Assembly: GCA_905221605.1 (NCBI GenBank)
Contig: CAJNDS010002106.1
Location: forward strand, 348,501-412,500
From: Symbiodinium natans
Taxonomy: Eukaryota; Sar; Dinophyceae; Suessiales; Symbiodiniaceae
Direction of reading: 5' to 3'
Length of the DNA stretch: 64,000 bases
Shown here: positions 1-64,000 of the stretch, piece after piece
Layout: each line of letters starts with the position of its first letter
How positions within the stretch are numbered: position 1 is the stretch's first letter
Position numbers and translations under genes: made by a program
The notes under the pieces: model-generated
The model's database searches: none
Seen by the model: the letters and a program-made list of their open reading frames with translations, nothing else
What the model was told of the DNA's origin: nothing

Positions 1-216
1 TAAGGGTTTAGGGTTTAGGGTTTAGGGTTTAGGGTGTAGGGTGTAGGGTGTAGGGTTTAGGGTTTAGGGTTTAGGGTTTAGGGTTTAGGGTTTAGGGCTT
101 AGGGTTTAGGGTTTAGGGTTTAGGGTTTAGGGTACTCCTTGGGCATACCCCTTAACAGAAATTGAGGGGGGGGGGGGGGGTATGGCAAAACATCCTTCCC
201 GAGCTTTTCCGTTTAC

Positions 217-305
217 AGATTGAGGTGTATGGGCTTGGGGTATGTTGATGATGTTCTTAGAAAGTTGCATCTTCGACCAAAAGCAGACGGTCTTGCTAAG
301 GACAC
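217..305 (-). CDS. Probable internal exon, unknown protein
   Basis: Read on the minus strand, the acceptor is CCCCATCTGCAG and the donor is GTAAAC. The frame between them is open in more than one phase; one reading contains KTVCFWSKMQLSKN. No family is recognised. The downstream flank is a poly-C stretch and telomere-type repeat. Confidence 0.35.
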
Positions 306-1076
306 CTGCAGATGGGGTACGGTTTAGAAAAGCCTCTTAACCCTAAGCGGTTTAGAAATTCCTCTTAACCCTAAACCCTAAACCCGTATGAGGTGCTTTA
401 AGAGGAAACAGCCAAGACCAAGTGCCCTCCACTTCTGAGGCGGTTTAGGGGTTTAGGGTCTAAGGTCTATAGTGTTTAGGGTTTAGGGCCATGGGATAAC
501 GAGCCCAAAGAGTCCAAAAGTCCGACTGGTTGGATTCTTTGTGACTACTTCTGGCACCCTACTCCTACCTTCCGAACCCCAAAGCCCACCTTTTGTAGAT
601 CTCAACCCCCAACCCTGAACCCATAAGGGGCTTCTATAGCAAGAGCCTAACACAAAAGTAGGTTTGGGGTTCTTATCAGGTGCCCAGCACTGTATTTCTA
701 AAGGCTGTTTGCGATGCTGTGAAGGTTTGGATGCAGAGTAGGTGCGAGAGCAGCTATGGCCCGATTGTGGAGGCCCTAAACCCTAAACCCTAAACCCTAA
801 ACCCTGAACCCTCTCTCACCCCACCCTGCCCAAGGCGCCAAAGCCACCCGAACTCATTCCATACGAGGCTCAGGCCTAAACTCAATTGCTTGCGGGGGCC
901 TTTTCGCCCCCAGATCTCTATACAAGATTGGGTTTAGGGTTTAGGGTTTAGGGTTTAGGCCAAGGCCTCAGAATCTTTTCAAGGGGGGGTCTTCTGGGTG
1001 TCCCAGGTCTCAACTGGGGGGCCCAGGCTCAAGGGTTTGTAGGGTTTTGCGGGTTTATCGGCTGCAGCTCGGGCAC

Positions 1077-1190
1077 GTATATTGCATAGCACCCTGCGGA
1101 AGCCAGCATCCAGATGAGGCTGTTGAAGTCACCACGTTGGTGGAGGTCCACAACGCCTTGCACGATCCAGGATGTTTCGTTGCGCAAGTC
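1077..1190 (-). CDS. Probable internal exon, unknown protein
   Basis: Acceptor TTTCTTTGCAG and donor GTGCCC bound exactly 38 codons in phase 0. The frame includes DLRNETSWIVQGVVDL and later LIWMLASAGC, and two thirds of its third codon positions are G or C. The hydrophobic tail could be a membrane helix. The next minus-strand exon upstream (1584-1643) is also in phase 0, so the two can be spliced without a shift. Family not recognised. Confidence 0.5.
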
Positions 1191-1583
1191 CTGCAAAGAA
1201 AGCCTCAAACTTAAATCCCCTTCCCGACCACAGATAAGAGCGAAGAAGATGCATCAAGTGCGTAAGGCTGTAGTATCTACATCGATCTATTCATCTATCA
1301 AATGAACACAGAAACAGCGACGAAGCCACCGCACCTCGTACAAGCATGGATGCGCAGGACGAATGCGCCAGACACGGGTTTGTTCTTGAAAAACCACTTC
1401 AAGTGTTTGACTGGGGGATAGGGGAAGTAGTAAGACCAGGCAGGGCCCTAAACCCTAAAACCCTAAACGCTAAACCCCAAACAGTACCCTAAACCCAAAA
1501 CCCAAAACCCTAAACCCTAAATCCTAAACCCCAAAACCCTAAACCCTCAACCCTGAACCCTAAGCCTAAGACAAGGTACTCAC

Positions 1584-1643
1584 CACAAGAATGCCGAATT
1601 GAAGGTGAACGCAGATGGCCGCGCCAGACTTCCAAGCTCGGAC
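1584..1643 (-). CDS. Probable internal exon, unknown protein
   Basis: Twenty codons between an AAAG acceptor after a pyrimidine-rich stretch and a strong donor GTGAGTACC. The phase-0 frame contains AAICVHLQFGILV. This joins in frame to the exon at 1077-1190. A second open phase exists, so the frame is not certain. Confidence 0.45.
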
Positions 1644-2049
1644 CTTTGGGTTGGGTATAGGGTTTAGGGTTTAGGGTTTAGGGTTTAGGGTTTAGGGTTT
1701 AGGGTTTAGGGTTTAGGGTTTAGGGTTTAGGGTTTAGGGTTTAGGGTTTAGGGTTTAGGGTTTAGAGCTTAGGATTTTTCTTGCCACCCGCTTAGTGAGT
1801 AGGGTTTAGGGTTTAGGGTTCAGGGTTTAGGGTGCGATTCCTGAACCCGAAGCCCTATCCAAAACCCTAAGCACTGGACGCTTTCAATCCAATGGTTTGG
1901 GGCCTATGTAGACTTCAGACGTCAAGGCACGATCTAGTATGAGGGCGGCTTAGGTTTAGGGTTTAGCGTTTAGGGTTTAGGGTTCATGGTTTAGGGTTTA
2001 GGGTTTAGGGGTTATACGGTTTAGGGCTGGTGGAGTTTGTGGGATCCCC

Positions 2050-2190
2050 TAAAGAGCCCAATACCCCTTAGTTCATGAATGGACCGTAAATAATTTTCAA
2101 GATCCCTTGAATAAACCTTAAATAATGTTCAGGATCCCTTGATATTTTTTGGTATATTCTTTTAAGTAAGGGGCATTGAGCTCTTTGGGT
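2050..2190. mobile_element. MITE-like element, family A
   Basis: Inverted ends AAAGAGCCCAATACCCCTTA and ...AAGTAAGGGGCATTGAGCTCTTT. Related copies at 4306, 5380, 6081 and 21940. Confidence 0.75.
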
Positions 2191-2242
2191 CCTTGCGCTT
2201 GCGGACAAGTGAACCCTGAAAGGGTTTATGGTATGTCCTTAC

Positions 2243-2306
2243 TTGTAGTCGTTTGGGTCAACCATCCATGGCCGACTTGGACGACACGCGGTCATGTTCC
2301 AGTAGT
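2243..2306 (-). CDS. Probable internal exon, unknown protein
   Basis: Donor GTAAGGAC and acceptor AAAGTAG bound 64 bases. One frame is open throughout and contains PSRPWMVDPNDY. The upstream intron begins in telomere-type repeat. Its best frame ends in phase 2, which does not fit the phase-0 reading of the exon at 1584-1643, so the linkage is unresolved. Confidence 0.35.
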
Positions 2307-2777
2307 CTACTTTAGGGTTTAGGGTTCAGGGTTTAGAGTTTAGGGTAACTGTAGCTATACATGTACGTTTAAACCCGAAACCCTCATCCCAACATCTCCA
2401 GATGACAAATGGGAAAGCGACAGAAAAGCTTAGCGGACTTCAGATGTCGGGTGCTTTTCCCTTACCCTAGAAGGCTCTAAGGACTCGTCTTTTAGGGTTT
2501 TTGGGCCCCAAGGCCTTCAGGGACTTAGGGTTTATACCCCTAAACCCTAACCCTAAACCCTAAACCCTAAACCCCAAACCCTAAACCCTAAACCCCGGGT
2601 TTAGGATTGCTGAAAGGGCAGCATAGGGCAACCTGGGACGTGCACCTCTCCGATATCTGACGTTGTGGCACACGCGTTTGCGTTTACATTTAAGGGATCC
2701 GTAGGGTTTGGGGTTTAGGGTTTAGGGTTTGGGGTTTAGGGTTTAGGGTTAGTAACGGTTCAGGATTCAGGCTTCAG

Positions 2778-2854
2778 TGCCACGGCGCCTGCACATGTGT
2801 CAGCTCTTCCTCAACGCGCTCTTCGGTCACATGGCTATCCTGCGCGCCCCCTAA
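2778..2854 (+). CDS. Possible terminal exon, unknown protein
   Basis: Acceptor GGCTTCAG is followed by an open frame (RRLHMCQLFLNALFG) that stops at the TAA of the first CCCTAAA repeat. A stop supplied by telomere-type repeat is seen at several other pieces. No family is recognised. Confidence 0.3.
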
Positions 2855-4305
2855 ACCCTAAAACCTATAAACCCTAAACCCTAAATCCTAAACCCTAAAC
2901 CCTAAATGATAAATCCTAAACCCTAAATCCTAAATCCTAAACCCTAAACTCCAAGCCGAATCTAGACCCAACTTGGAAGCTCTTCTGACTTAAACAGCCT
3001 ACTTGGCCTTCCCTAGAAATCCGTAGTAACCCTACTTTCTCAGGCTAGCTATATGGACCCGTAATATGGTCCCTTGCCTCCCTCAAAGGGTTCTGAAGCA
3101 TGAGGGCCCTTGGGTGGTATAGGTATATGAGGGGGACATAAGGGGTCCCTGTTTCAGGGCTCATATTGAGGAACCATGAAACTACCCCTAAACCCTAAAC
3201 ACTAAACCCTTAACCCTAATGACTCAAAACCCGAATGCCGGAACCAACGGACCGACACAGGTATTTCCCAACAGATGCAGGGAGGAAGGGGGGGTCTAGG
3301 GTGTAGGGTTTAGGGTTTAGGGCTTAGGGTTAAGGGGGGGGGGGGGCTTTGGGGTGTGTTGAGAGCTAGCTTAAGGGGTTTCCTACCCTCAGCGAAACGC
3401 TAAACCCCTCGAAACCGCAATCTGGAGAGGTGCCCTAAGCCGTCAGCTTAAGGTGATAGGATTTACCGGACCCAAGAGTATCCCCGGAATCATACGGGCC
3501 TAGGGCTTAGGGTCCTGGACCCAAGAGTAACCGAGGAATAAAAAGGGGACCCTTTTGGCAGAAAGAGCGCGTAGAAGGGAACCTGAGCCCTAGAAAAACG
3601 GGGAAGATGGGCCTAGAAACCCTAAACCCTAAACCCTAAACCCTAAACCCTAAACTCTGAACCCTAAAAATCTCAGGGCTTAGGTCCTACGGTTTTGGGG
3701 CTTATATAGGTCTTGGAGGGTATGTGGGCGTTGGGCTCATGGTTTAGCAGTTCTGGGTGCGGTCTATCTCTACCTCAAGAACCCCAAAACCCATTTCGTT
3801 CCAGGCTCTCAGTGCAAAACCCCCTTATAGGCTTCTTGGGTAACCTACAAGAAACTAGGTTTGGGGTTCTTAAGGTAAGCCCCGGTTCTCCAGGTAAGCT
3901 CCGAAACCCTAAACCCTAAACCCTAAACCCTGAACCTTCTATGTAGCAGCGGTACTCTGACAGGGCCCGAAACACTGCGGTCGAGTGTGAGGTTCATAAG
4001 CCCAGGGTTGGCCAGGGCTTTTGAGACCTCGGGTTTAGGGTTTAGGGCTAGGGTTTAGGGTTTAGGGTTTAGGGTTTAGGGTTTAGGGTTTAGGGTTTAG
4101 GGTTTAGGGTTTAGGGTTTAGGGCTAGGGTTAAGGGTTTGCTGCAGCAGCTGTCCTTGTCAGGATCTTGCCTTGGCATCACGAAGAAAGCAGCAACAATA
4201 TTGTTTTTTTCGCAGGGTTTTGAGGGCTTGGGGTTCCACCTGAAGGCTCCATAAGCTCGGTTTAGGGTTTAGGGTTTAGGGTTAAGGGTTTCGGGTTTAA
4301 ACTTC

Positions 4306-4490
4306 TCAAAGAGACCAACGCCCCTTCATTCCGGAATATGCCTTAAGTGATAAAACAAAAACGGATCCCTTGATAAACTGAGGTATATCCCTTAATTAAG
4401 GGTTGTGGGGCTCTTTGGGTAGTTCCGTTTTGGGTTCGCTATGGGCTTGGACTTATACTACCCAAAAAACTGCATAGGAGCCTTTGGGTA
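4306..4490. mobile_element. MITE-like family A copy abutting a family B copy
   Basis: 4306-4420 has family A ends (CAAAGAGACC ... GGGGCTCTTTGGGT). 4418-4490 has a family B right half (CATAGGAGCCTTTGGGT) with a shortened left end. Confidence 0.65.
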
Positions 4491-4852
4491 GGGCCTGAAA
4501 CTGGGCCCCAATTTAAATTACAACCGTCTAATGGCTTTATAAGGATTATGCAGGGGATCCAGGGCAATAAAAACTCAAAAACATATGCTGAAACCCATCC
4601 TTGTAATGTGTAGGGTTTCCGAAAGACAAAAAACCTGAACCCAAAACCTTAAGCCGCGCATGAACCCAAGATGGACTGAGGTCCCCAGGCCATCTTTGCT
4701 TCTCCACTTTGCAAGAAAGACCCCTCTAAACCCTAAACCCTAAACCCTGAACCCTGAACCCTAAACCCTAAACCCTAAACCCTGAACCCTAAACCCTAAA
4801 CCCTGAACCCTAAACCCTGAACCCTAAACCCTGAAGCCATTTGCAATGCTAG

Positions 4853-4905
4853 CTGTCGCGCCAAGTTGCGCCTTGCGCGTCAAGGGGAAGAGGTCGCAAG
4901 GAAAC
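4853..4905 (+). CDS. Probable internal exon, unknown protein
   Basis: Acceptor TTGCAATGCTAG and donor GTAAGC bound a frame reading CRAKLRLARQGEEVARK. The piece is flanked by CCCTAAA on the left and TTTAGGG on the right. No family is recognised. Confidence 0.4.
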
Positions 4906-5379
4906 GTAAGCTCCTTTTTGGGTTCAGGGTTTAGGGTTTAGGGCATAGGGTTTAGGGTTTAGGGTTTAGGGTGAACCATTGCAAAAAAGCGTGTCGGGTA
5001 GTTTAAACTAGGTCCCCCAGTCACATAGGAGAAGCTCGTCTTGGTAATTTCTGGTTTATGAGGGCATTTCTGAACCACCCCAAAACCCCAATCCCCTGTA
5101 AACGGAGAGCCCGGACCCAGCCGGGTTCTTGGCTGAGGTCTTATAAGGAGAAGATCTCCAAAGAGAAGCTAGTACAAACCTCGCTGGAGCCCCGAAGTAC
5201 CCATAGTCAAGGGGCGCTTGGGGTTTGGGGTTTGGGGTTTAGGGGTTTAGGGGTATGTCTGCCAAAGCCAGGATTAAGTGGAAGGCCCAGGAAACCCAAA
5301 GCCCTAAACCCGTTGGAAGCACGACCTCATAGGGGCCCTATTCACTAGCTTGCCTACGCTGGACAGCGTAGATTGTACC

Positions 5380-5487
5380 CACAGAGCCCAATACACCCTT
5401 AATTAACAAATGTGCCTTAAGTTTGAAGGGGTCCTTAATTATGGTTTCAGGTATTTCCTTAACTAAGGGGGAGTGGGCTTTTTGGGT
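5380..5487. mobile_element. MITE-like element, family A
   Basis: Ends ACAGAGCCCAATACACCCTTAA and TAAGGGGGAGTGGGCTTTTTGGG. Confidence 0.7.
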
Positions 5488-5748
5488 CGTAGAAGGGTTT
5501 ATCAGTGCTTGCTATGGTTCATTGTTTCCAGTTGTCTTTATCCCCCTCGGCCACTTGTTTCCAACTGCTATGGGCTGGCCTTTAAAACCTCTGAAAATAT
5601 TTATATAGTGGGCCCCTTACACACCCAAATACGGAAAATATAAAATGTCCCAAAAACCAACCTAGTTCTCTCAGATCCGAGCTTGTAGAGATTGAGATTT
5701 AGGGTTTGGCTTTAGAGCAGTGTTTTTGGCACCTGCTTAGCTGACCAC

Positions 5749-5880
5749 GTCGCACTCCCAGGACGCGCGCAGCTGGCACAAGCGTACAATCTTCTGAAAT
5801 ATTTCATCGACAGTTTCAGTTTCAGTTGTGTAGGCTGAGTATCAAGATGGTCCCACCTCACTAGCCAACGCCGTCCGAAG
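5749..5880 (-). CDS. Two small exons with a 68-bp intron
   Basis: On the minus strand a 19-base exon (5862-5880, acceptor ACATCTGCAG, donor GTGAGG) is followed by an intron at 5794-5861. That intron starts GTGAGG, contains CTGAAAC branch-like sequences and ends ATATTTCAG. A 15-codon exon (5749-5793) reading KIVRLCQLRASWEC follows, with donor GTGGTC. Donor, branch and acceptor are all good, which makes this one of the more convincing introns here. Protein not recognised. Confidence 0.45.
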
Positions 5881-6080
5881 CTGCAGATGTTGCTTTCGCC
5901 CTAAACCCGAAACCCTAAACCCCTAAACCCTAAACCCCAAACCCTAAAACCTAAACCCTAAACTGGGCTTCCATTATCCCGGTCTCTCAGAGCAATGCCG
6001 ACCAGCTGAAACCCCTGAGCCCCAACGCTGTAACCCTGACCCTAAGCCCGAACCCCTATAAACCTCAAACCTAGACACTC

Positions 6081-6184
6081 CCAAAGAGCCCAATACCCTT
6101 AATTAAGGAATATGCCTTAAATCATAACAAGGCCTTTAAGAACTAAGGTACATTCCTTAATTCAGGGATTTGGGCTCTTTGGGC
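6081..6184. mobile_element. MITE-like element, family A
   Basis: The cleanest copy: CCAAAGAGCCCAATACCC to GGGATTTGGGCTCTTTGGG, with TTAATTAAGGAATATGCC and its near complement inside. Confidence 0.8.
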
Positions 6185-6848
6185 TTGTCCTGAACCCTAC
6201 CAAGTCAGTTGCTGAGTTCCAAGGCCGAAACAAAGGTTAATCTTTCAAAGATGGTAGGACTCTCACCCTGTCTCTCTCTATACATACAGACACACCGCAA
6301 AAGGTGTAAAGGTTACCTACCCAGCGTCTGACCCTAGCCCTCAGCCCCAAACGCCGGATGAGGCGCTTTGTGTAACCATATCAGTGCCAGGGACCACGCC
6401 AAGGCACACCTGAGGGAGGTGGGGGGGGGGGGGGTAGTGAACAAGGTAGAGCAGGGGACAGGGTGGAAGGTTGAAGGTTGAGATTTTTTTAATATGTTTT
6501 TATTATATACATATACATATACACATACATATACATATATATATATATACGAGCTTATTTTTTGTTGGGGGGGGGGGGGGGGGTGGGCTGAAAAAAGAAA
6601 AGGGGGTCTGGGCAGGGGTGTGGTTCGAGGTTCATGTTCGGAGTGGTTTGACATTGCAGCTGGCCAGGATTTTTTACAGGCGAAACCCTAAACCCTAAAC
6701 CCTCCGGTGCCCGGCCACTTCAGTCAAGCTAGGCAAGAAACCAACACTTTCCCTAGGCGGCAATGAAAACCACTTCTTCCTTTGACCCAAAAATGCTCTG
6801 CAGGGGCACGAATTCGTGGTGGGAATCAACTTTGGGAAAAGAGTAGGG

Positions 6849-6987
6849 ATTGGGATGCTCCTCCTCATGCTAACAGCCCTTAATAAGCATTCTAGTACAC
6901 CCTCTTGTAATCCCTATTAGGGTTTAGGGTTTATAGGGTTTAGGGTTAAGGGTCACGGACTCTTAGTACAAGGGGGGGACATCCCAA
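6849..6987. mobile_element. MITE-like family C, interrupted by telomere-type repeat
   Basis: Starts ATTGGGATGCTCCTCC and ends GGGGGACATCCCAA. The middle (about 6913-6951) is TTAGGGTTTAGGG-type repeat in place of the usual element centre. Confidence 0.7.
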
Positions 6988-7660
6988 AGTAAGGGTTCTA
7001 AGCTGCAAGAAAGCAGGGAGCATGGGCTGCTGTGTGCAATGCGGCTAGACCGCACGCAGCCCTAAACCCTAAACCCTCAACCCTAAACCCTAAGCCCGAA
7101 GCCCTAAACCCTAAACCCTAAACCGGACTGAACTGTGACTCAGTCAAAGCTGCGCCCAGACGGCATCCAGCTCAAAGATCTCCGACCACACCGCCATGAT
7201 GCACGTCACATGTACGTCCACTCTACCACAGCGGTCAGTTCTGGGAGCCGGAACGCAAGTCCACGAGCGCATGGCCCTAAGCCTCAAAAGCCTGAATGCT
7301 TTCAGGGTTTAGGGTTGAGGATGTGGGGCTTGGAGGATTTGGAAAGTTGCGCTCTTCACAGTCTAGTTTAGAGAACAGCTTTAAGAAGGCCAGGGAGTTA
7401 GGGATTGGGGACCCGCCCCCCTCCCCCCCCGCATTTGATAGAGCGCATTCGGGCCGGTGGGCACACACACACAGATGCATGTGAGAGCTAGAAGCCTCCT
7501 AAACCCGAAACCCCACAGTCCCCCCCCCCCCCCCCAAACAAAAAAAAAACTAAACCCTAAACCCTAAATCCTAAACCCTAAACCCTAAACCCTAAACCCT
7601 AAACCCTAAACCCCAAAACCCCAAACACTCAAACTTTTCAAACACCTCTGCCCTTTGCAG

Positions 7661-7697
7661 TCTCTGGCAACCTCGAGGCGGCCTGATCCTCTTGATG
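7661..7697 (+). CDS. Possible small exon
   Basis: A strong acceptor, CTCTGCCCTTTGCAG, precedes 12 open codons (SLATSRRPDPLD) and a GTCCTT donor. The minus strand is also open, so strand and frame are tentative. Confidence 0.25.
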
Positions 7698-8730
7698 GTC
7701 CTTTGGTTTAGGGTTTCGGAGTTTAGAGGCTTTAGAGGTTTAGGGTTTTGCAGGGGGTTTAGGGTTTAGGGTTTAGGGTTTAGGGTTTAGGGTTTAGCCA
7801 CCCCCCCGGCCAAGCAACGTGGCGGCTGTGGCGGCTTTCGCGGGGAGGGTGCCCGATGGGGGCGGGTGGGTGGTGGCCTGCGCGGCAAGGGAGGCCGCAA
7901 ACCCCTAAGGGTTTAGGGTTTAGGGTTTGGGGTTTAGGGGTTAGGGTTTAGGGTTTAGGGTTAGCCCTAAACCGAAGTTGTCCAGTAGCCTAGGGAACTA
8001 AAGAGTAACCTTTGGGATGATATAGGGATTCTAAAAACCCCAAACGGTGCAAGGCCACCTACTCTACTACGACGAAACACCCCAGAGATACACCCCTAAA
8101 CCCTAAACCCTAAACCCTAAACCCTAAACCCTAAACCCTAAACCCTAAACCCTAAACCCTAACCCTAGCCCCTAAACACCCCACCAGAGAGACACCAACC
8201 CCAAACATGCTGAACCCTCAGCATCGTGAAGCCCCCGAAACCGGTAACTCTCTTAAACCCGCAACTCAGAGGTAGGGTTTAGGGTTTAGGGTTTAGGGTT
8301 TAGGGTTTAGGGTTTAGGGTTTAGGGTTTAGGGTTTAGGGTTTAGCGTTTAAGGTTTAGGGTTTAAGGCTTAGATTTCGGGAGACACGCTGCCTGGACCC
8401 CCCCTTTATTTAGGTCTGCTTCTGGGCACACGTGCCCTGCAAAAAGAATGACATATATGGGTTTACGACATTAGGGGTACCTTCTTGGGGTCCTCATTAT
8501 CCCTAAATCCTAAACCCTAAACCCCCATATGATGCAGATCTAGGCATCTGAAACCCCTTTAGCAGAAGCATAAGGCCGAGTGGTACAATGGCTACGGGAT
8601 ACGCAGTGCGCCCTACAAACCCTAAACCCTAACCCTTAAACCTTAAACCCTAAACCCTAAACCCTGAACCCTAAACCCTAAACCCTAAACCCAAAACCCC
8701 AAACCCTAAACCCTAAACCCTACCTCCGAG

Positions 8731-8802
8731 AGGTGGGCCAAGCCTTGCCGGAAGCACGCGGCGCGGCTCGGGGGGCGGCTCCGGCAGCTGCACCGCTTCG
8801 CT
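8731..8802 (+). CDS. Probable exon ending in a GTTTAG donor
   Basis: Twenty-four codons in phase 0 follow the acceptor ACCTCCGAG and run to GTTTAG. The translation is basic (RWAKPCRKHAARLGGRLR), with high GC in third positions. Both flanks are CCCTAAA-rich within 30 bp. Function unknown. Confidence 0.35.
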
Positions 8803-9052
8803 GTTTAGAGGGTTCACCTTCGCAGGTCTCCCTTGCCTAAACCCTAAACCCTAAACCCTAAACCCTAAACCCTAAACCCTAAACCCTAAACCCTAAACCC
8901 TAAACCCTAAACCCTAAACCCTAAACCTAAACCATAAACCCTAAACCCTAAACCCTAAACCCTAAACCCTAAACCCTAAACCCTAAACCCTAAACCCTAA
9001 ACCCTAAACCCTAACCCTAAACCCTAAACCCGAAACTCTAAACCTCCGATTC

Positions 9053-9122
9053 TCAAAGGGCCTGCGTCGCGTCGTCGTTTTTCACCTGTTCCAAGCGCTC
9101 GCGCCACCTGGCCAAGGCACAG
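9053..9122 (-). CDS. Probable terminal exon, unknown protein
   Basis: Acceptor GAACTTTCAG is followed by a frame reading CALARWRERLEQVKNDD and a TGA stop. The sequence is charged and helix-like. A GC donor inside the last codons is an alternative to the stop. Confidence 0.4.
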
Positions 9123-9342
9123 CTGAAAGTTCGGCCTTAGGGGTCCTAAACCCTAAACCCTAAACCCTAAACCCTAAGCCCTAAACCCTACACCCTAAAC
9201 CCTAAACCCTAAACCCCAAACCCTTGACTTGAGCAACTTGAAGCTGAGAGTGTAAGGCGCCCCATATCCTCAATTGGGGGGGGGGGGGGGGGGTTATTTT
9301 TTATACCTGTCCCCCAAAACAGCCCCAAGGTATGCTTGGTAA

Positions 9343-9440
9343 CCCTAAGGGTCCATGTACCTAAATAGGGAATACTTGGGCCTTGAAGTACCTCCTATTT
9401 GGGGACTTTAGGGCCTATAAGTACATATAAGTACTTAACA
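9343..9440. mobile_element. MITE-like element, family D
   Basis: AAGGGTCCATGTACCTAAAT ... GGGAATACTTGGGCC ... partly inverted right end. Relatives at 19819-19932 (clearest inverted ends) and 31019-31092. Confidence 0.65.
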
Positions 9441-9879
9441 ATAAGCTACATTGAACCTTTAGGGTAAGGATTCCCCAATTTTGACAGGAGTCTGATCCCA
9501 TGGTCACATGGTCCACCCGCTAAACACGACTTTTTGGAACGACCCCACCCGGCTATGGAGAACCCCTAAACCCCTAAACCCCTAAACCCCTAAACCCCTA
9601 AACCCTAACCCTAAGCCCTAACCCACCCTAAACCCTAAACCCTTAACTTCACCCCCCCCCCCCCCCCCCTCAAACCCCCCAAGCCCTGGGAGTTTGCAGC
9701 TTCTGCGTGCACCTGACGATCTGGCTGGGCCGCTGCCTGCACCCGCACCACGCTGTATCCGCCCTAAACCCTAAACCCTAAACCCTAAACCCTAAACCCT
9801 AAACCCTAAACCCTAAAGGGTTCAAAAAGGGCTTAGGGTTGACCTAGACCTCGGAAAGTAGATCTTTTGGGTACCGGAG

Positions 9880-9923
9880 CTTCTGCGGCGCCCCCGGAGA
9901 AGGAACTGCAACCAAAGGTCCAG
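9880..9923 (+). CDS. Probable internal exon, unknown protein
   Basis: Acceptor GGTACCGGAG and donor GTAGGG bound 44 bases reading SAAPPEKELQPKVQ. A partial copy of the 3' boundary (GGTCCAGGTAGGG) recurs about 85 bp downstream. Confidence 0.35.
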
Positions 9924-10491
9924 GTAGGGCGTTTAGGGTTTAGAGTTTAGGGTTTAGGGGTTCGGGTTTAGAGTTTAGGGTTTAGAGTTTACAAGGGTCC
10001 AGGTAGGGTGCCTTTGGGATGCTCGAGGCTGTAGAGTGTGAGATGTTTTTGGGGATGTGGGAGGTTGAGGCTGCAGGTTTCGCGGGGTGAGGGCCTGCTC
10101 GGCAAGTCACTTGAAGCACAGCTCGGCTAGGGTTCGGGTTTTAGGGTTTAGGGTTCAGGGTTTGGGATTTAGGGCCTCTAAATCGCAAAACCTAAGACCT
10201 AAAGAAGCCCCGAAACCCTGAGACCTTAAACGCCTAGGCCCCACATGCCGAACACCCTGAAACCCTAAACCCTTAGCCCTAAACCCTAAACCCTAAACCC
10301 TCAACCCTAAACCCTAAACCCTCAAACCTAAACCCTAAAGCTTATGAAGCTGCAAAGCTTTGAGCCCGGTGTCCTTCAGAAAGCCTTGAGCCACCCTAGG
10401 ATTCCTCCGGTTTAGGGTTTAGGGTTTAGGGCTTAGGGTTTAGGGTTTGAGTTCTAGGGCTTGGGGTTCAAGGCTGGGTTTTGCGCTGCAG

Positions 10492-10531
10492 AGCTTCACA
10501 GATGCAAGCGGACGCCGGCTGCTAAGGCTGG
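10492..10531 (+). CDS. Probable exon with telomere-repeat donor
   Basis: Acceptor TTGCGCTGCAG, then SFTDASGRRLLRL in phase 0, then directly GTTTAGGG, the first unit of a TTTAGGG array. The splice donor would be the telomere-type repeat itself. Confidence 0.4.
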
Positions 10532-10630
10532 GTTTAGGGTTTAGGGTTTAGGGTTTAGGGGTTTAGGGTTTAGGAAGGTTTAGGGTTTAGGGTTCAGGGT
10601 TCAGGGTCCCATCGTCCTGGCCTATACTAC

Positions 10631-10668
10631 CTGCATATTGGGGAGCAGTCGGCCATAACCGAGGGGTA
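10631..10668 (-). CDS. Small exon, unknown protein
   Basis: Thirty-eight bases between acceptor CTCTCAAAG and donor GTAGTA (CAG/GTAGTA at the junction). The frame reads YPSVMADCSPIC. Short, so the evidence is mainly the splice sites. Confidence 0.3.
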
Positions 10669-10873
10669 CTTTGAGAGCCTAAACCCTAAACCCTAAACCC
10701 TAAACCCTAAACCCTAAACCCTTAACCCGAAACTCTAAACCCTCGTTCTACACCTTGGACAGTCGACCTTCTCAACCCTAAATTCTAAGCCCCAAGCCGT
10801 CCCCTAAGAACCCCAAACCTAGTTTTTTCGTTGTAGTACCTAAGAATCCTGTAGGGGAAGTATAATGAGCGCC

Positions 10874-10900
10874 TAAAAAAGGGTGTCCTTTTGGCTCAAA
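10874..10900. repeat. AAAAAGGG/CCCTTTTT palindrome, family F
   Basis: CTAAAAAAGGGTGTCCTTTTGGCTC, near-perfect hairpin. Also 23508-23536 and 62884-62908. Confidence 0.7.
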
Positions 10901-11075
10901 ACAGTATTAAACGGCCCTCCCCCCCCCCCCCCCCCCCAACAAACAAAAATGGGAATGAGGGTTCATGGGGACGGTGGGTATTTAGGGAACCTGCGGAAAA
11001 GCTTTAGGGCGGGAACCTTAGGTTACACCCCCCCCCTCCCCCCCCCCGGCAACCCCTAAACCCTAAACCCCTCAT

Positions 11076-11132
11076 TCAGCAAAGCTGCAGGCGCTGCATG
11101 TAGGCGCTCTTCCTCCGGACTTTGTCGGTATC
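11076..11132 (-). CDS. Probable terminal exon, unknown protein
   Basis: Acceptor CCAGAGTTCAG, then 18 codons (DTDKVRRKSAYMQRLQLC) and TGA. Charged and helix-like; no family is recognised. Confidence 0.35.
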   Translation of the reverse strand, partial: DTDKVRRKSAYMQRLQLC

Positions 11133-11365
11133 CTGAACTCTGGCCGTTTCTAAGATGACTTGACTTGAGGACGTTGCGAGTGTCGGGGCTGTGAGAATAA
11201 CCACGTATATGAATCAATAAATAAATGTAAATAAATAAAAAATAAATAAATAAATATACTTTTAGTTAGATGTGTGCTTATACATATGTATATGTGTATG
11301 TATGTGTGTGGGTGGGTTGCTGTAGGGGGGGGTGGGGGGGGGTTGTTATCACCTCTCTCTCATTT

Positions 11366-11403
11366 GTTTTCTTTCTCTCTCTCTCTCTCTGTCTTTCTCT
11401 CTG

Positions 11404-11435
<32 letters not shown>

Positions 11436-11558
11436 TGTCTCTCTCTCTCTCTGTCTCTCTCTCTCTGTCTCTCTCTCTCTCTCTGTCTCTCTCTCTCTCT
11501 CTTTCTCTGTCTCTCTCTCTCTCTCTGTCTCTCTGTCTCTCTCTCTCTTTCTCTCTCT
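11366..11558 (+). repeat. CT/CTGT microsatellite
   Basis: Almost pure CTCTCT interrupted by GT at intervals. It gives long S/L-rich (plus) or R/E-rich (minus) open frames that are not genes. Confidence 0.95.
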
Positions 11559-12776
11559 GGCGCTGACAGACCCTTTTCCATTAACCCTGAAGCTTTCTAC
11601 CCCTAAACCCCGAAACCGTAATACCATAACACCCTTAAACCCTTTAAACCCTTAAACCTTAACCCTCAAAGCCTTAGACCGTTAACACCCGCAACCCTCA
11701 ATAACCCCCACAGAGCCTCTCGAGCCTCTGGCCGAGGCCATCAGTGCCAGCGAGGTTGAGGGTTTAGGGTGTGGGGTTGAGTAATAGTAACAAGAGAGAA
11801 AGATAAGGTCAGGAAATATGTGTAGGGTTCATTGTATTTAGGGGCTTTGTAATATTCTCAATAGTATGACATATAAACATGTCAAATAAATTTATGTAGT
11901 CCTAAACCGGTTATAAGTACCCATGAACCTTCAAGTAGGTATTGTGGGAATTCTTGTCCCTAAGGGTGAGAAGGGGATAGCACAGGGGTCACTAGTCACC
12001 CAAAAGGCTTCTATGTGGTACTTTTGGCGGGCAGCACACTGCAATCTCGAAAACTAACCCAAACAGGATCTACAATGGAGCCTTCACGAAGGCTACGAAT
12101 TTCTCGGGATTGGCTGTACATGTCTTGGGTTTAGGGTCTTACGGGGGTTAGGGTTGCGGGGTTGGGGAGGGGGGGGGGGGGGGGGACCTTTTAGACCCTC
12201 CACCCTTCCACCTGTTTTGAATTCGGACTTGGTGACTGCCAGCAATCTCTCTCGCCCTTCCACCCCTGAACCTTATAGGGTTTATGGTTTATAACACCCA
12301 ATCCCCTAAACCCTAAACCCCGAAACCCTAAACCCCAAACCCGAAAGCATTCCAGGGCCAAGTCTCCCTCTCCATCTCTGGCGGAGCTTCTATGTGATCT
12401 TTGGCCTCAGTTGGTTTTCCCTCAGTTCGTTTTGGGGTCTGCGATTTAGGGTTAAGGGTTAAGGGTTTAGAGCTCTAAGGTTTAGGGGGCGTGCGTCAGA
12501 ATGTAGGTTGGCCTACTCCCAGCTGCAGTCGAAAGCCCTATAAGCCCCTTAGCCCTAAGCCCTATAGACACCTAAACCCTAGAATCCCTAAACCCGAGCT
12601 TTAACCAAAGGCTCCTATGTAGTACTTTTTGGGGGTAGTATTCGAGCATCCCCGATAACCAACCCTAAAAGAACCAGAAGGTTGCCTCATAAGACGCCCA
12701 GAGCTGCACCAGTTGCAACCATGAACCCAAAACCCAAAACCCAAAACCCTAAACCCTAAACCCCTAGAAGCCCAAC

Positions 12777-12866
12777 ATAGAGGCGGGGCCTCCGGTTTAT
12801 GATGTAGTTTAAGGCTGCTCGGGCCGAATCTACTCCCAACATGGCCCATACATTGCCATGGCGGAT
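12777..12866 (-). CDS. Exon-like piece resembling RNA polymerase largest subunit
   Basis: Thirty codons in phase 0 between acceptor TTTTGCAAAG and donor GTTGGG. The stretch NVWAMLGVDSARAAL recalls the conserved LGIEAAR-type segment near the C-terminal end of largest subunits of eukaryotic RNA polymerases (I and III especially). What is seen is the short motif and its spacing from an N residue; the family assignment is inference. No neighbouring exon continues the family recognisably. Confidence 0.3.
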
Positions 12867-13265
12867 CTTTGCAAAAGGTCCCCAAACCCAACAGTCCAAT
12901 CTTAGGGTCCAAAGTCCATTCCCCAAGAGCCCAAACACCTAAACCCGAAACCGCATGAAATGGAGTGGGGCCTCCGTTTATGGTTTATGCTTTAGGGCTA
13001 ATCGAATTTAGTGTAATTTTGGGTACAGCGAAAAACTATATTGGAATCACCATGTTGGTTCCTTGAGCTCGACTGGTGGTCTCGACAATACCTCGCCTTC
13101 TCCGCCCACCTCCCCCCCCCCCCCCCCCTGCCAGAAAGAACCCAAAGCAACTCGGTTGAGGGGTTATACGGCTTATAGAGTTTAATTATAGGGTTTTTAG
13201 GGTTTATAGAGTTTAACTCTAGGCCTTAATGGGTTTATAGAGTTTAACTATCGGCTTTCGCGCAC

Positions 13266-13359
13266 GGTCTTTGCGTTGCGACGCCAAAGTGTGACAAGGA
13301 TCTGCCAGAAAACCCGAACCATGCAGCAGAACCAACAACTTTTGCTTTGGAAGCCTAAG
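13266..13359 (-). CDS. Probable internal exon, unknown protein
   Basis: Acceptor CAATTTGTCACCAG and donor GTGCGCG bound 31 codons. The frame contains KQKLLVLLHGSGFLADPC, a hydrophobic strand followed by a glycine turn, then a basic tail. No family can be assigned from this length. Confidence 0.45.
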
Positions 13360-13729
13360 CTGGTGACAAATTGTAAAGCCCTACCTTAAGATTCCAAAAC
13401 CTACTTAAAAATACTAGGTTACCTAAGAATCCCACATCACATGTTCATTACTTTTATCACAAGAATCTACACAAACAGAGGTTTGGGGTTCTCAAGGGTT
13501 TTTGTACTAAGAACCTACCAAACAAATAGGTTCGGGGGTTCGGAAGGTCTACAGTCGAACCCTGCACACCTCACGGATGATTGCATATCCCCCTTAGAAC
13601 CTTAATAAAAACAGTAGGTTTAATATCTTCTTGGGTGTTATATAAACAATATATGTGTATATATATATATATGTATGTGTATATATATATATATATATAA
13701 TATTCCCAAGGGGGATATAGGATTGGTAC

Positions 13730-13803
13730 CCCCGAATCCGAACATGCAACCTCCTCCATGTCCTTCTTTTCCATCTCCTCCTGGCATGCTTGCACCCGAA
13801 ACA
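13730..13803 (-). CDS. Probable exon, charged helix
   Basis: Acceptor AGTTTTTAG and donor GTACC bound a frame reading FRVQACQEEMEKKDMEEV. Just downstream on the minus strand lies an AT dinucleotide repeat (about 13650-13700). Confidence 0.4.
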
Positions 13804-13869
13804 CTAAAAACTGAACCCTGAACCCTGAACCCTAAACCCTAAACCCAATGAGGTTGAAGGGAACCTCAC

Positions 13870-13903
13870 CCTCAAGCCTCGTGGAACCTAGACGAGTTGT
13901 GAC
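13870..13903 (-). CDS. Small exon, unknown protein
   Basis: Acceptor ATGCCTACCAG and donor GTGAGG bound VTTRLGSTRLE. The splice sites are good, but the piece is short. Confidence 0.3.
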
Positions 13904-14128
13904 CTGGTAGGCATGCTGCTCTCACAGGGCTGAGGCCAGTGACCATATGAGCCCTGATCCCTAAGCAGCTACAAGCACCTACCCTGAACTCCAAACACCA
14001 TGGCCACTGAACCCTAGAAATATTCAGCATACCCTTAAGGGGTATTGGTAGGTTAAGGGGTATGGGTTTGGGGTATGTTGCATGATTTTTTGATAAACGC
14101 TAAGTCCTAAACCCGGAACTGAACCACG

Positions 14129-14290
14129 CCTACTTCTGAGGGCGGTGCGCGAGCGAAACAGGAGAGGCTCACAAGCACTCCTACTTCTGAGGGCGTTGCG
14201 TGAGCAAAATGCAAACAGGAGAGGCTCACGAGCACTCCTACTTCTGAGGGCGGTGCGCGAGCAAAATTGCAACAGGATAGTCAGAAAAGT
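14129..14290. repeat. 51-57 bp tandem repeat, three copies
   Basis: Units begin CCTACTTCTGAGGGCG at 14129, 14180 and 14237 and contain AACAGGAGAGGCTCAC. They lie in the 3' tail of the retrotransposon remnant. Confidence 0.85.
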
Positions 14291-14409
14291 ATTCTGCACA
14301 TGAGTGGGGCAGAGAGCGCAGCCGGACCTGCAAACCTGTCCCAATGTCGATTCCCCCCTGGGCAGATGTCAGAACATCCAGGCGCGACCCGAGAGCGAAC
14401 AGCGACACG

Positions 14410-15411
14410 TCACGGCTGGTCTAGTGCTGCAGTGGCGGCAGCCGGGTCCCAACCTGCCCTGCGCACCACCGCACGCGCGTTCTCGCGCTGCAGTGTGATG
14501 CTCAAGGCCTGCAACAGTTTGACCTTCTCGGCCGCTGCAGTTTCGCCCGTGCGGGTGGCCAAGGCTTCCGCCAATGTCTCCCACGTCTGCATGGCAGCCG
14601 GGCCCCATCCCCCCCCGCAGGCCTCGGCAATAAGCGGCACAAACTGCAGGCCGACTGCGGCGCAAGCTTCCTGGGTTCGCTGGTAAACCCGTTTTCGGGT
14701 CTCATACTCCTCTGTGGCCCGCGAGCCTGAAGCAGCCGAAGCGGACACAAAGCCTTGTCGCAAGCCCGATGTGACCGCAAAGTCAAATGCCGCCGGGCCG
14801 TGTACCCCCCAGCTGGGCACCCAGACGTCAGCTGGCCTACGTCCCCCTTGCCCCACCACTCCGGCTACCCCATCATCATCCGGGCGCTGGGGAAGCAGGT
14901 TAGGCTTCTCCACCTCTGGGCTAAGCCCGGCACTCTGTGCCCTTGCCGCAAGCACTGATCGCAAGCGATTGTGGCGCTTGACGCGGTCTCCTCCGCACGG
15001 ACACAGCCGGGCATGGTCGCCGTGGCTGTCCGCCACGCCATCGCACAGTGGGCAGTCCATGTCAGTGGCCGCCACCGGCAAGCGAAGGCGAAGCTGCACC
15101 ATGACGCGGAATAGAGGCGCCGCCACGTGCAAGCCAAGCGCTTCGCAAGGCGGGGCGTGGAGCCAGGCGCCCGCACCGGGCTGCTGCAGGAGCTGAAGGT
15201 GAGCCCTGAAAGCTTCGCGGCCGGCAGCCGGAAGGCTCAGCTGAGCGAACGTTGCCTTGTCAAGCGCCTTGGACAGCTGCTGCTGTCGGAGGTGGGTTGG
15301 CACTGGAAAAGGCACACGGTCGGCAGCCGAGACTTCCTGGTTGAAAGCCGCGATCGTGGTTTGCAGCTCCGGAACCCCATAATCTAGGAAGCTCCCCCAA
15401 AACCCCCTTGA
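14410..15411 (-). CDS. Retrotransposon ORF, C-terminal fragment
   Basis: The frame is open from 15411 to the stop at 14410. Two thirds of the way down is a zinc-binding pattern, CPLC followed by DSHGDHARLC. After it come RPADVWVPS and, about ten residues later, FDFAVTS. A CCHC-type finger followed by an R/K-P-(A)D ... D/E pattern is what the restriction-like endonuclease of R2-type non-LTR elements looks like, so this may be that domain. The assignment rests on motif spacing only. No start codon is meaningful because the 5' part is missing. Similar C-terminal regions are common in algal LINE-type ORFs. Confidence 0.55.
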   Translation of the reverse strand, partial: SRGFWGSFLDYGVPELQTTIAAFNQEVSAADRVPFPVPTHLRQQQLSKALDKATFAQLSLPAAGREAFRAHLQLLQQPGAGAWLHAPPCEALGLHVAAPLFRVMVQLRLRLPVAATDMDCPLCDGVADSHGDHARLCPCGGDRVKRHNRLRSVLAARAQSAGLSPEVEKPNLLPQRPDDDGVAGVVGQGGRRPADVWVPSWGVHGPAAFDFAVTSGLRQGFVSASAASGSRATEEYETRKRVYQRTQEACAAVGLQFVPLIAEACGGGWGPAAMQTWETLAEALATRTGETAAAEKVKLLQALSITLQRENARAVVRRAGWDPAAATAALDQP

Positions 15412-19110: not shown

Positions 19111-19149
<39 letters not shown>

Positions 19150-57989: not shown

Positions 57990-58112
57990 CTGGCTACTAA
58001 ATCCCCAAACCCAACCCGAAGCCCTAAACCCTAAACCCTAAACCCTAAAACCGAAACCCTAAACCCTACACCGTGATATTCAAAAAACTCTATTGGAACT
58101 TAGCACTCTTAC
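57990..58112 (-). other. Probable intron containing telomere-type repeat, 123 bp
   Basis: Donor CCT/GTAAGAG and acceptor TAGTAGCCAG, both phase 0. The interior holds GTTTAGGGTTTCGG and three further TTTAGGG units. Removing it joins two coding-like frames and avoids stops. Confidence 0.6.
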
Positions 58113-61116: not shown

Positions 61117-61131
61117 CTTGAGCCAAAATGG
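61117..61131 (-). other. Relict dinoflagellate spliced leader
   Basis: The minus strand reads CCATTTTGGCTCAAG, an exact match to the 3' 15 bases of the 22-nt leader trans-spliced onto dinoflagellate mRNAs. In the genome it marks a gene copy made from a processed mRNA. It is fused directly to CCCTAAA repeat upstream. Confidence 0.8.
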
Positions 61132-62279: not shown

Positions 62280-63009
62280 AAACTTGAAGCCCTAAGCCCT
62301 GCAGCCGCAATGCTCAACTCTTCAGGTCAATGCTCTCAAACCCTCAACCATGCCCAGGTAGCGGAGATGAATTGCCACGCTTCCTCGCCCTGCATCTGGC
62401 TCTTCCGCCTCCTCACATCTCAAGTCCAGGCTTCAGTTTAGGGTTTAGGGTTTGGGGTTTAGGGTTTCGGGTTTCGACTCTCACACTCGCACGAGGCCGG
62501 CAAGGCATGGGGTGGGAGGTCGGTGGTTTAGGGTTCGGGGTTTAGGGCTTTTGGGTATAGAGTTGAGGATGCCTTCTATAACCCTAAACCATAAACCCAA
62601 AAGCCTGAACCCAAAACCCTGAATCAGAGGTGTATGGGGAAACTTGCGCATGTGACCGTGTTCCGACGATGTAATGACCAACGCAGTGGGGGGCTGCGGA
62701 GGGAGGGTTTAGGATGTAGGGTTTAGGGCTTAGGGTTTTGGGGGTTAGGGTTTACGTAGTCTTTTCTAAAAGGCTTCTTAGCAGTTCCTTTTTGGGGCTT
62801 CAGGTAGGTACGCTGCAACTGCTTCGAGCTCCTCTTCACTATGTCAGGGTTGCATGCTCCAGACCCAAGAATAACCCAGGATGAAAAAGGGTGCCCTTTT
62901 TGGCTCGACAGTTCGAGAGTGTTGCACCTACCCTAGCTGCCCCGTACAAAGTCACATAGCATGCTTTATCGGACCTGCACCCCTTTTGTCCTGACACGAA
63001 AACGCTGCG

Positions 63010-63228
63010 TCACAGATAGCCCAGAGCATGACGTATCTCCTGGACGGCTTCGTACATGTCCGGAGCTTGCTCCAGGACAGCTCTGGTGTTTCGTTCGCAG
63101 TCCTCACTGTTGGTGTGGTTTATGCCTGCAGAAAGGCCGTTCTCGCCCCTGTGAAGATCTTCATGCTTGGCCAGTTCACGGATGTGCTCGTGCTCCTCTT
63201 CAGTGAGAAGATCTCCGAACATGAAGTC
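63010..63228 (-). CDS. Probable C-terminal exon, unknown protein
   Basis: Acceptor TTGGCCCCAG is followed by DFMFGDLLTEEEHEHIRELA then MYEAVQEIRHALGYL and a stop, about 72 codons. It is helical and acidic, with a His-rich patch (EHEHIRELAKHEDLH) that could bind metal. Not recognised. Confidence 0.45.
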   Translation of the reverse strand, partial: DFMFGDLLTEEEHEHIRELAKHEDLHRGENGLSAGINHTNSEDCERNTRAVLEQAPDMYEAVQEIRHALGYL

Positions 63229-63379
63229 CTGGGGCCAAGGCCGACTACAACTGCCTGGCCTTACTACTCGTGCTACCTGTGTAGCTGCTTACTTGCCTGT
63301 TGAGCAAATTATGTTGTATCCTACATACTTGCCTAGTTGCGTAGATCGCGGCATATTTGAGCTGTAGAGTGAGAGCGAG

Positions 63380-63389
63380 CGCGCAAGAA

Positions 63390-63426
<37 letters not shown>

Positions 63427-63532
63427 GCACAGGGAGAGCAAGAGAGTGAGAGAGAAGAGAGCAAGTGAGAATGCCATGGAGAAAGCGATTCGAGAGCCAC
63501 AGAGAGAGAGCACGAGAGACAGAGCAGAGAGA

Positions 63533-63563
<31 letters not shown>

Positions 63564-63640
63564 CAAGAAACAGAGAGAGAGAGAGAGACAGACAGAGATC
63601 AAACAGAGAGAGAGAGAGAGTCAGAGGAAAACAAACACAC
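63380..63640. repeat. GA-rich microsatellite
   Basis: Imperfect GAGAGA with CAGA and GAGC interruptions. Confidence 0.95.
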
Positions 63641-63728
63641 AAAACATCAGATGCGGCTACTAAACCCTAAACCCTAAACCCTAAACCCTAAACCCTAAAC
63701 CCTAAACCCTAAACCCTAAACCCTAAAC

Positions 63729-63862
63729 CCTATCCCCTGGCCAGGGAGCGAAGAGCGTCTTGACATGGACATCGAAACTGTCCGATGAGTAGCTGAGGTC
63801 CTCGAAGCGAGAGTTGTAGGTGTCCCTGCCCGAGTTCTGGTAGATCTCTAGCCTTGGTTGGC
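63729..63862 (-). CDS. Probable exon with telomere-repeat donor
   Basis: Forty-four codons from acceptor AACCCTAG to GTTTAGGG, reading LEIYQNSGRDTYNSRFEDL, then SSDSFDVHVKTLFAPWPGD. It is the longest and most protein-like of the exons bounded by telomere-type repeat on both sides. Family not recognised. Confidence 0.55.
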
Positions 63863-64000
63863 CTAGGGTTTAGGGTTTAGGGCTTAGGGCTTAGGGCTTA
63901 GGGTTTAGGGTTTAGGGTTTAGGGTTTAGGGTTCAGGGTTTAGGGTTTAGTGTTTAGGGTTTGGAGTGTAGAAGGGAATAGAGAATTAGGTACCTTACAT

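Follow-up and report, generated by a model that had tools for sequence, protein, structure and literature searches.

Introns commonly carry G-runs close to the donor and pyrimidine tracts close to the acceptor; the introns considered here likewise tend towards G-rich 5′ and C-rich 3′ ends. The TTTAGGG repeat itself has been reported in dinoflagellates (PMC11453091). Interstitial telomeric sequences at double-strand breaks in mammals (PMC2246262, PMC7215372) are, like the sequences considered here, short internal runs of telomere repeat. In the alveolate Eimeria tenella, bands rich in repeats extend across much of the genome and contain the same TTTAGGG heptamer (PMC9131526). The introners of Amoebophrya (PMC7789003) offer another likeness, dinoflagellate introns with pairable inverted repeats near both ends; these repeats are 8–20 nt long and direct repeats are present at the borders. 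Plant telo boxes (PMC3022908) are also telomere motifs in gene regions; they consist of a single unit and are concentrated in 5′ flanks and in 5′ UTRs. Searches of openly licensed papers turned up no description of telomeric repeats placed at the ends of introns; the work of Roy and others (2023) on dinoflagellate introners is known to us through citing papers only, so an earlier description may exist.

Telomere-type repeats in the window and in the genome

The window, i.e. the whole 64-kb stretch of DNA that was analysed, contains 412 copies of TTTAGGG and 500 copies of CCCTAAA, far beyond chance; tandem runs of the two are called G-type and C-type arrays below. These tandem telomere-type repeats are located away from chromosome ends, as in interstitial telomeric sequences. 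Exact (TTTAGGG)3 words number ∼1.19 million per strand in the 759 Mb of the genome. Telomere-like coverage (7-mers with at most one mismatch to the repeat, counted per 2-kb bin of the window) was 22–55% per bin at 1–36, 48–56 and 60–64 kb and 2–8% in the remaining bins; the stretch 36.3–48.2 kb had 4.7% versus 7.6% in its own shuffle. Features of the window are listed in Table 1.

Table 1. Features of the window with their coordinates, strand and supporting remarks
Feature	Position	Strand	Remark
Array-rich stretch	1..36217		22–55% telomere-like per 2-kb bin
Exon-like piece AIPSGPGAIEARWEGEVDYLQEKLLGL between arrays	18370..18447	-	
G-type array (minus-strand sense) after piece 22433..22519	22349..22432	-	
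Exon-like piece closely flanked by arrays, ...CCCTAAACCCCAG before it and GTTTAGGG... after it	22433..22519	-	No Pfam match
C-type array (minus-strand sense) before piece 22433..22519	22521..22597	-	
Exon-like piece GHEPKPTRLSATQQLNRALALASMVFFQGGFGE between arrays	23055..23154	-	No Pfam match
Exon-like piece with HEVGH zinc-protease-like motif, between arrays	25823..25936	-	All Pfam matches were below cut-off, the best at E 0.088
Retroelement-like open frame, 3816 aa, array-free	36317..47764	-	RNase H PF00075 and endonuclease PF03372
G-type array (minus-strand sense), possible intron, in the interval that separates two long open frames of the minus strand	58022..58063	-	
Relic resembling a spliced leader, CCATTTTGGCTCAAG, with two C-type units immediately before it	61117..61131	-	
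Exon following the probable intron 63226..63734, DFMFGDLLTEEEHEHIRELAKHEDL...ALGYL, then stop	63013..63225	-	
Probable intron with sense-strand (TTTAGGG)9 at its 5′ end	63226..63734	-	Missing from 16 continuous homologues; limits approximate
G-type array (TTTAGGG)9 at 5′ end of the intron	63665..63728	-	
Exon RLEIYQNSGRDTYNSRFEDLSYSSDSFDVHVKTLFAP...	63735..63863	-	Either end may shift by a few codons; in a query fused to the following exon it matches 16 homologous frames that have no break

Among ten window frames (45–3816 aa) one had Pfam matches. The window gave no Rfam matches at gathering scores, no tRNAs in a tRNA scan and three hairpins, one of them an AT repeat. The 21-base sequence CCGTAGCCATTTTGGCTCAAG, which we take to be the dinoflagellate spliced leader, has 205 exact copies genome-wide (104 + 101; none for the reversed control), identifying the host as a dinoflagellate.

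Most of 300 arrays have degenerate repeats at their edges. The starts of the 300 arrays were not sharply anchored at GT; a mild excess of starts was seen at GGGTTTAGGG (62/300). Other simple repeats are common beside the telomere-type arrays, and array density is very uneven from sample to sample. Eight RNA-polymerase stretches, two of them partly N, contained few arrays (1 to 17 heptamers each).

Orientation and spacing of arrays

In the window, the distance from a C-type array to the next G-type array is ∼112 bp; G-to-C gaps are broadly distributed. Gaps of 80–140 bp account for 25/41 C-to-G cases versus 8/42 G-to-C cases, a difference reached in none of 5000 label permutations. The same polarity was seen at five other loci (15/25 versus 6/24; 11 of 5000 permutations as extreme). 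These loci (L026 and L028–L031) are the array-bearing ones among 15 stretches; the remaining ones, outside the spacing test, were L027 with 3 heptamers, L032, which is all N, and the RNA-polymerase stretches, eight in number. Genome-wide, C..G unit pairs with a gap of 85–115 bp outnumber G..C pairs 2.6-fold (107 320 versus 41 057), where the counts are of overlapping unit pairs rather than loci and reversed-pattern controls gave 0. The corresponding numbers are 2282 and 6284 at gaps of 0–30 bp, and 191 698 and 138 161 at 250–280 bp. Viral contigs had no match to the C-N85-115-G pattern.

Could the arrays have grown neutrally, as microsatellites do, in all non-coding DNA, with polarity a by-product of exon spacing and of intron G/C strand skew? 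The mostly degenerate array edges, the frequent simple repeats of other kinds and the uneven density between samples are consistent with such growth, but it predicts neither the 25/41 versus 8/42 contrast nor the genome-wide excess at exon-sized spacing, and we consider it unlikely.

The 49 pieces bracketed by a C-type and a G-type array had on average 3.18 open frames out of six versus 2.78 (sd 0.15) after shuffling. G-to-C pieces of matched length, in which degenerate, stop-rich repeats were left untrimmed, had 1.73 (sd 0.18). At least one frame was open in all 49, a weak difference from the 47.1 of shuffled pieces. GC content was 0.594 in bracketed pieces (n = 48) and 0.499 in G-to-C pieces (n = 48; p = 1e-13). 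The pieces are not mutual copies, as blastn among the 49 gave no matches. One piece at L031 resembled Decapeptide repeat PF25296 (E = 5.7e-9; 36.2 bits, below the family cut-off of 45) and, in tblastx, a second bracketed piece. A joined query of three L031 exons matched its own three exons only, which says nothing on splicing. Codon-model strand calls for the bracketed pieces include many near-ties and are illustrative only.

The initial annotation listed 16 positions at which exon-like pieces run in frame to GTTTAGGG, and proposed that the repeat unit acts as a 5′ splice donor. The word is present at all 16 (5 on the plus strand, 11 on the minus strand), within 1 bp for 15 and within 6 bp for 54105. 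The expected surplus in open-frame length before it was not borne out: the median longest frame was 72 nt upstream (267 arrays) versus 57 nt downstream (p = 0.11), and telomere-free sites had 105 nt. This comparison carries a bias, since ∼110 bp upstream there is often a C-type array, whose stops close all frames. We regard GTTTAGGG as no more than a candidate 5′ splice donor.

A probable intron near 63 kb

The two minus-strand exons near the end of the window, when joined and compared with the same genome, gave 21 matches, of which 16 are single open frames running across the junction (29–40% identity, E from 5e-10 to 0.008, net 1–8 codons shorter than the query). The segment carrying the G-type array is missing from these 16 homologues; the break in the paralogue C1859 falls at the same site. 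Homology makes an intron the most probable identity of this segment; that it inserted into a broken gene copy is less likely. Apart from the array it is mostly CT-rich, and its 3′ end has no C-type array. Since (TTTAGGG)9 begins within a few codons of the end of the upstream exon, the array itself may serve as the donor or may follow the donor immediately.

The same homologues bear on another explanation. The order of arrays round each piece, (CCCTAAA)n–piece–(TTTAGGG)n, is that of a linear chromosome with its two telomeres, as if the pieces were former minichromosomes or products of ciliate-like DNA elimination. Such an origin appears extremely improbable: the pieces are ∼100 bp long and exon-like, two of the window exons are continuous in 16 homologues, and the pattern is found inside long contigs, one of 3.4 Mb.

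Kinesin introns with and without arrays

Eight kinesin P-loop exons of 501 bp each provided cases of known strand. A C-type array is located upstream of four of them and a G-type array upstream of none. Downstream, we found one G-type array (L046), one single G-type unit (L045) and one C-type array (L048). At L046, 45 nt separate the conserved T-M codon from the start of the array, so that the donor is probably upstream of the array; the L045 unit begins 19 nt after this codon. At kinesin L036, C-type units lie 30–89 bp before an exon. L048 is one exception to the orientation rule. Others are L034, where a G-type array precedes an exon by 25 bp; L033, with G-type units 64–123 bp upstream of an exon; L035, whose C-type units follow an exon at 60 bp; and L036 and L038, in which G-type arrays occupy mid-intron positions.

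In seven of the eight exons, read by eye, homology ends within ∼5 codons after T-M, both where the following intron carries an array and where it does not. The intron at this position therefore looks older than the arrays, and invasion of old introns is favoured over intron gain. The earlier proposal that telomere-type repeats form introns can be kept in part: arrays do lie inside introns, as indicated by the homology across 63734–63226 and by the C-type arrays upstream of kinesin exons; the suggestion that they seeded new introns is disfavoured.

The kinesin introns also count against birth or remodelling of introns by break healing, in which telomerase extends both 3′ ends of a break and the insert is spliced out. 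The product, left-(TTTAGGG)n...(CCCTAAA)n-right, would owe its polarity to telomerase alone and acquire the order inside introns without selection, and telomeric-repeat insertion at breaks has been reported in mammals (PMC2246262, PMC7215372). Still, direct head-to-head joins are few (6284 unit pairs at 0–30 bp against 41 057 at 85–115 bp), G-to-C gaps mostly contain hundreds of bp of other sequence, and many introns have only one array; both the intron birth and a polarity due to telomerase alone seem rather unlikely. That telomerase-type repeat addition has been a genome-wide source of intron ends in this lineage is distinctly unlikely. On this view breaks in genes were healed on both sides, and at tens of thousands of sites the inserts would have turned into spliceosomal introns or reshaped existing ones; inserts of this type would supply their own GT, branch-like and pyrimidine-rich sequence.

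A G-type array in the 5′ part and a C-type array in the 3′ part of an intron form inverted repeats, which recalls introners with inverted repeats, and introners are reported in dinoflagellates (PMC11453091, PMC7789003). We give little credence, however, to the idea that these introns were made by insertion of an element like a DNA transposon whose terminal inverted repeats are of the telomere type. When ∼111 kb of masked array-rich DNA, a small sample, was searched by blastn, 15 dispersed matches appeared and no shared intron interior was recognised; moreover, the arrays vary in length, are often one-sided and can sit away from the exon.

Proposed origin of the arrays

We lean, at somewhat better than an even chance, to the reading that telomere-type arrays colonise introns and that a splicing constraint sets their orientation. 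The window would then be genic dinoflagellate DNA in which heptamer arrays form parts of spliceosomal introns. On the sense strand (TTTAGGG)n would tend to occupy the 5′ part of the intron and (CCCTAAA)n the 3′ part, and many exons, roughly 60–110 bp long, would be bracketed as (CCCTAAA)n–exon–(TTTAGGG)n. The arrays may have come into introns that were already present, either through telomerase-like insertion where a break occurred or because short seeds grew longer. Sense-strand TTTAGGG holds the acceptor-like TTTAG/G and should therefore be harmful near the 3′ end of an intron. CCCTAAA has neither GT nor AG, is pyrimidine-rich and contains, in tandem, branch-site-like CTAAAC; near the 3′ end it should be harmless or helpful. 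G runs close to the donor may be tolerated or may aid it. The known-strand cases, being few, fit a 3′-end and a 5′-end constraint alike.

Exons bracketed by inverted repeats should be able to pair in RNA, so that exon skipping or circular RNAs are predicted unless the cell prevents them. If colonisation by arrays is correct, insertion of telomere repeats would be tied to intron structure at genome scale. Intron remodelling would become testable in one species, since array presence could be compared across sister strains and the repeats expected to disturb splicing follow from the orientation rule.

Comparison with known systems

Relative to the general G-run and pyrimidine-tract composition of intron ends, here one telomere-type repeat in two orientations supplies both. 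Mammalian interstitial telomeric sequences (PMC2246262, PMC7215372) differ from the ∼1.19 million (TTTAGGG)3 words per strand found here, which are polarised round exon-sized pieces. The Eimeria tenella bands share the heptamer, but the available part of that report (PMC9131526) states no relation to splice sites or orientation, unlike the polarity described above. Plant telo boxes are single units (PMC3022908), whereas here arrays surround exons. Compared with the introners of Amoebophrya (PMC7789003), the repeats reported here are heptamer arrays that differ in length, are frequently one-sided and stand back from the exon.

Abundance and distribution of the arrays

TTTAGGG is the dinoflagellate telomere repeat according to a review (PMC11453091). 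In the assembly searched (759.4 Mb, 2543 contigs; the window is G000:C1794:348501-412500), exact (TTTAGGG)3 occurs 1,185,204 times on the forward and 1,184,385 times on the reverse strand, against 41 and 33 occurrences of the reversed control. The window contains 412 TTTAGGG (G-type) and 500 CCCTAAA (C-type) heptamers, with 69 G-type and 105 C-type perfect arrays of at least two units; the telomere-like share per 2-kb bin is 22-55% in 1-36, 48-56 and 60-64 kb and 2-8% in the remaining bins. Array density is very uneven, as the number of heptamers runs from 1 to 241 among 14 readable sampled stretches of the assembly (L032 is all N). On contig C1, plus strand matches to (TTTAGGG)3 are listed from 235,651 on, past 1-235650, and are dense from there, a pattern that suggests array-free and array-rich domains. 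The 9-bp and 8-bp units of the variant arrays in the table are apparently heptamer derivatives, and the paired G-type arrays probably arose by local duplication.

Placement of arrays in introns

On the minus strand, at ∼63.0-63.9 kb, a piece ends in VKTLFAPWPG, (TTTAGGG)9 begins within a few bases of this end, and a piece starting with DFMFGDLL comes ∼500 bp on. The joined translations of both pieces, used as a query against the same genome, produced 21 rows: 16 single uninterrupted frames across the junction (29-40% identity, E-values from 5e-10 to 0.008; 133-370 aa long, with a net shortening of 1-8 codons relative to the query), two rows for the window exons themselves and three for a paralogue on contig C1859. 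In this paralogue the split between the first two pieces (query 3-38 and 48-73) falls where the window exons are divided. Since 16 of the 21 rows run through the junction, the array segment is absent from homologous coding sequence; its simplest reading, given these homologues, is an intron, and insertion into a broken copy is a less likely one.

The proposal in the initial annotation that telomere-type repeats lie in introns is thus supported by homology for this segment. Its second part, that GTTTAGGG acts as 5′ splice donor, is possible: GTTTAGGG is a candidate donor of the window intron, the exact donor being placed only within a few codons because a similar PWP stretch is present on both sides. 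The motif was found at all 16 coordinates assigned to it, 11 of which are minus-strand. Over 267 arrays, the open frames that end at GTTTAGGG had a median length of 72 nt; the medians were 57 nt for frames downstream of arrays (p = 0.11) and 105 nt for telomere-free sites, in a comparison limited by the stops that an upstream C-type array puts in all frames; as these frames are not unusually long, the enrichment of open frames expected by the annotation was not seen.

Exons of known strand were provided by kinesin genes (98 hits in the genome), for which flanks were read in eight stretches of 501 bp (L045-L052). Upstream of the exon, a C-type array was present in four of eight (L045, L046, L049, L050) and a G-type array in none; downstream, L046 has a G-type array, L045 a single G-type unit and L048 a C-type array. 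In the 501-bp stretches L047, L051 and L052 no arrays were found on either exon side. The G-type repeat begins 19 nt (L045) and 45 nt (L046) after the codon of T-M, conserved residues of the P-loop exon. By eye, homology in seven of the eight exons ends within about five codons past T-M whether arrays are present or not (in L049 it may extend further), so the intron at this position is probably older than the arrays. Among the longer kinesin loci, L036 has C-type units 30-89 bp ahead of an exon. The orientation rule is broken by L034, with a G-type array 25 bp ahead of an exon, by L033, where G-type units precede the exon by 64-123 bp, and by L035, where C-type units follow it at 60 bp; G-type arrays also occur mid-intron in L036 and L038.

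Polarity of arrays around exon-sized pieces

Array polarity around exon-sized pieces is strong. For window arrays of at least three units, taken in order along a single strand (gaps >3 kb or crossing the retroelement left out), C-to-G gaps are narrow (median 112, quartiles 101-131; 27 gaps) and G-to-C gaps broad (median 356, quartiles 215-628; 27 gaps). With arrays of at least two units, gaps of 80-140 bp make up 25 of 41 C-to-G vs 8 of 42 G-to-C gaps in the window (0 of 5000 label shuffles as extreme), and 15 of 25 vs 6 of 24 at five other loci, the sampled array-bearing stretches outside the RNA-polymerase loci (11 of 5000). Genome-wide, C..G vs G..C counts with two exact units per side were 2,282 vs 6,284 at gaps of 0-30 (ratio 0.36), 107,320 vs 41,057 at 85-115 (2.6) and 191,698 vs 138,161 at 250-280 (1.4); the pairs counted overlap one another and long arrays inflate their number, and the measure is the order ratio.

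Arrays occur in introns, and the mechanism that we infer behind their architecture is one in which splicing determines polarity. Sense TTTAGGG contains the acceptor-like TTTAG/G, with GT added by tandem copies; CCCTAAA lacks both AG and GT and is rich in pyrimidines, and its tandem copies hold CTAAAC, which resembles the branch-site consensus. C-type arrays close to acceptors would be harmless or useful, and G-type arrays would be displaced toward the 5′ part of the intron. The repeats may come from telomerase acting at breaks or from growth of short seeds. Two-ended break healing would yield the same array order; however, it predicts many direct head-to-head joins, and such joins are few (the 6,284 unit pairs at gaps of 0-30).

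The pieces bracketed by an upstream C-type and a downstream G-type array look like exons. Their mean GC is 0.594 vs 0.499 for G-to-C pieces (48 each, p = 1e-13), and on average 3.18 of six frames are open, vs 2.78 in shuffled pieces and 1.73 in G-to-C pieces of matched length, which retain degenerate stop-rich repeats. No mutual similarity was detected by blastn among 49 bracketed pieces. On the minus strand of L031, another sampled stretch, seven exon-like pieces were recognized by eye, each with C-type repeats before and G-type after; one matches the Decapeptide repeat PF25296 (E = 5.7e-9; 36.2 bits, under the curated cut-off of 45) and resembles another of the seven (tblastx).

Other elements

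Features of the window and of stretch L031
Feature	Position	Strand	Remarks
Variant arrays	22911-23045, 19308-19440, 24904-25003		9-bp TAAACCCTA and 8-bp AGGGTGTT units
Two long G-type arrays	49173-49592		flanks alike (...aaagatgata; aaaacaccaaaCCCTAAAagccctacat)
Tandem 21-bp unit	31420-31625		TTACTGGGCAAGGTCATTTTT; unrelated to heptamer
3816-aa frame	36317-47764	-	RNase H (PF00075), endonuclease (PF03372); without arrays, within array-poor 36.3-48.2 kb
Several consecutive long frames	55087-60054	-	no Pfam matches
333-aa frame	14413-15411	-	C/H-rich segment; no Pfam match
Spliced-leader-like relic	61117-61131	-	0 mismatches in 15 bases
Spliced-leader-like relic	60115-60129	-	1 mismatch in 15; could be chance
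Hairpin, MITE-like	61957-62085; L031 6063-6137		arms 38 and 22 bp, respectively

Judged by domain content, the 3816-aa frame is a retroelement of non-LTR type; the 333-aa frame looks retroelement-derived, by its resemblance to other dinoflagellate sequences. One of the consecutive long frames has a GNSGS motif that by eye resembles those of trypsin-like proteases; a G-type array (58022-58063) occupies the gap between two of them. The L031 hairpin has C-type repeats on both sides. In L009 (G000:C1841:87098-87832) an RNA polymerase beta match lies inside an uninterrupted 1235-aa frame, and copies on C31, C101 and C524 are split; contig C1841 is a possible bacterial contaminant.

Exact copies of the dinoflagellate spliced leader number 104 + 101 genome-wide (control, 0). 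Two spliced-leader-like matches arose in 6 of 100 shuffles. C-type repeats, perfect or degenerate, directly precede both relics, which perhaps mark retroposed genes with trans-splice acceptors after C-type repeats.

Comparison with known systems

The arrays are a real, genome-wide architecture and a new form of interstitial telomeric repeats; in a few cases sequence homology supports their placement in introns. No account of exon-polarised telomere-type arrays was found in the openly licensed literature. The closest published parallels are the bands of telomere-like repeats in Eimeria tenella (PMC9131526), the introners with inverted repeats of Amoebophrya (PMC7789003) and the telo boxes of plants (PMC3022908).
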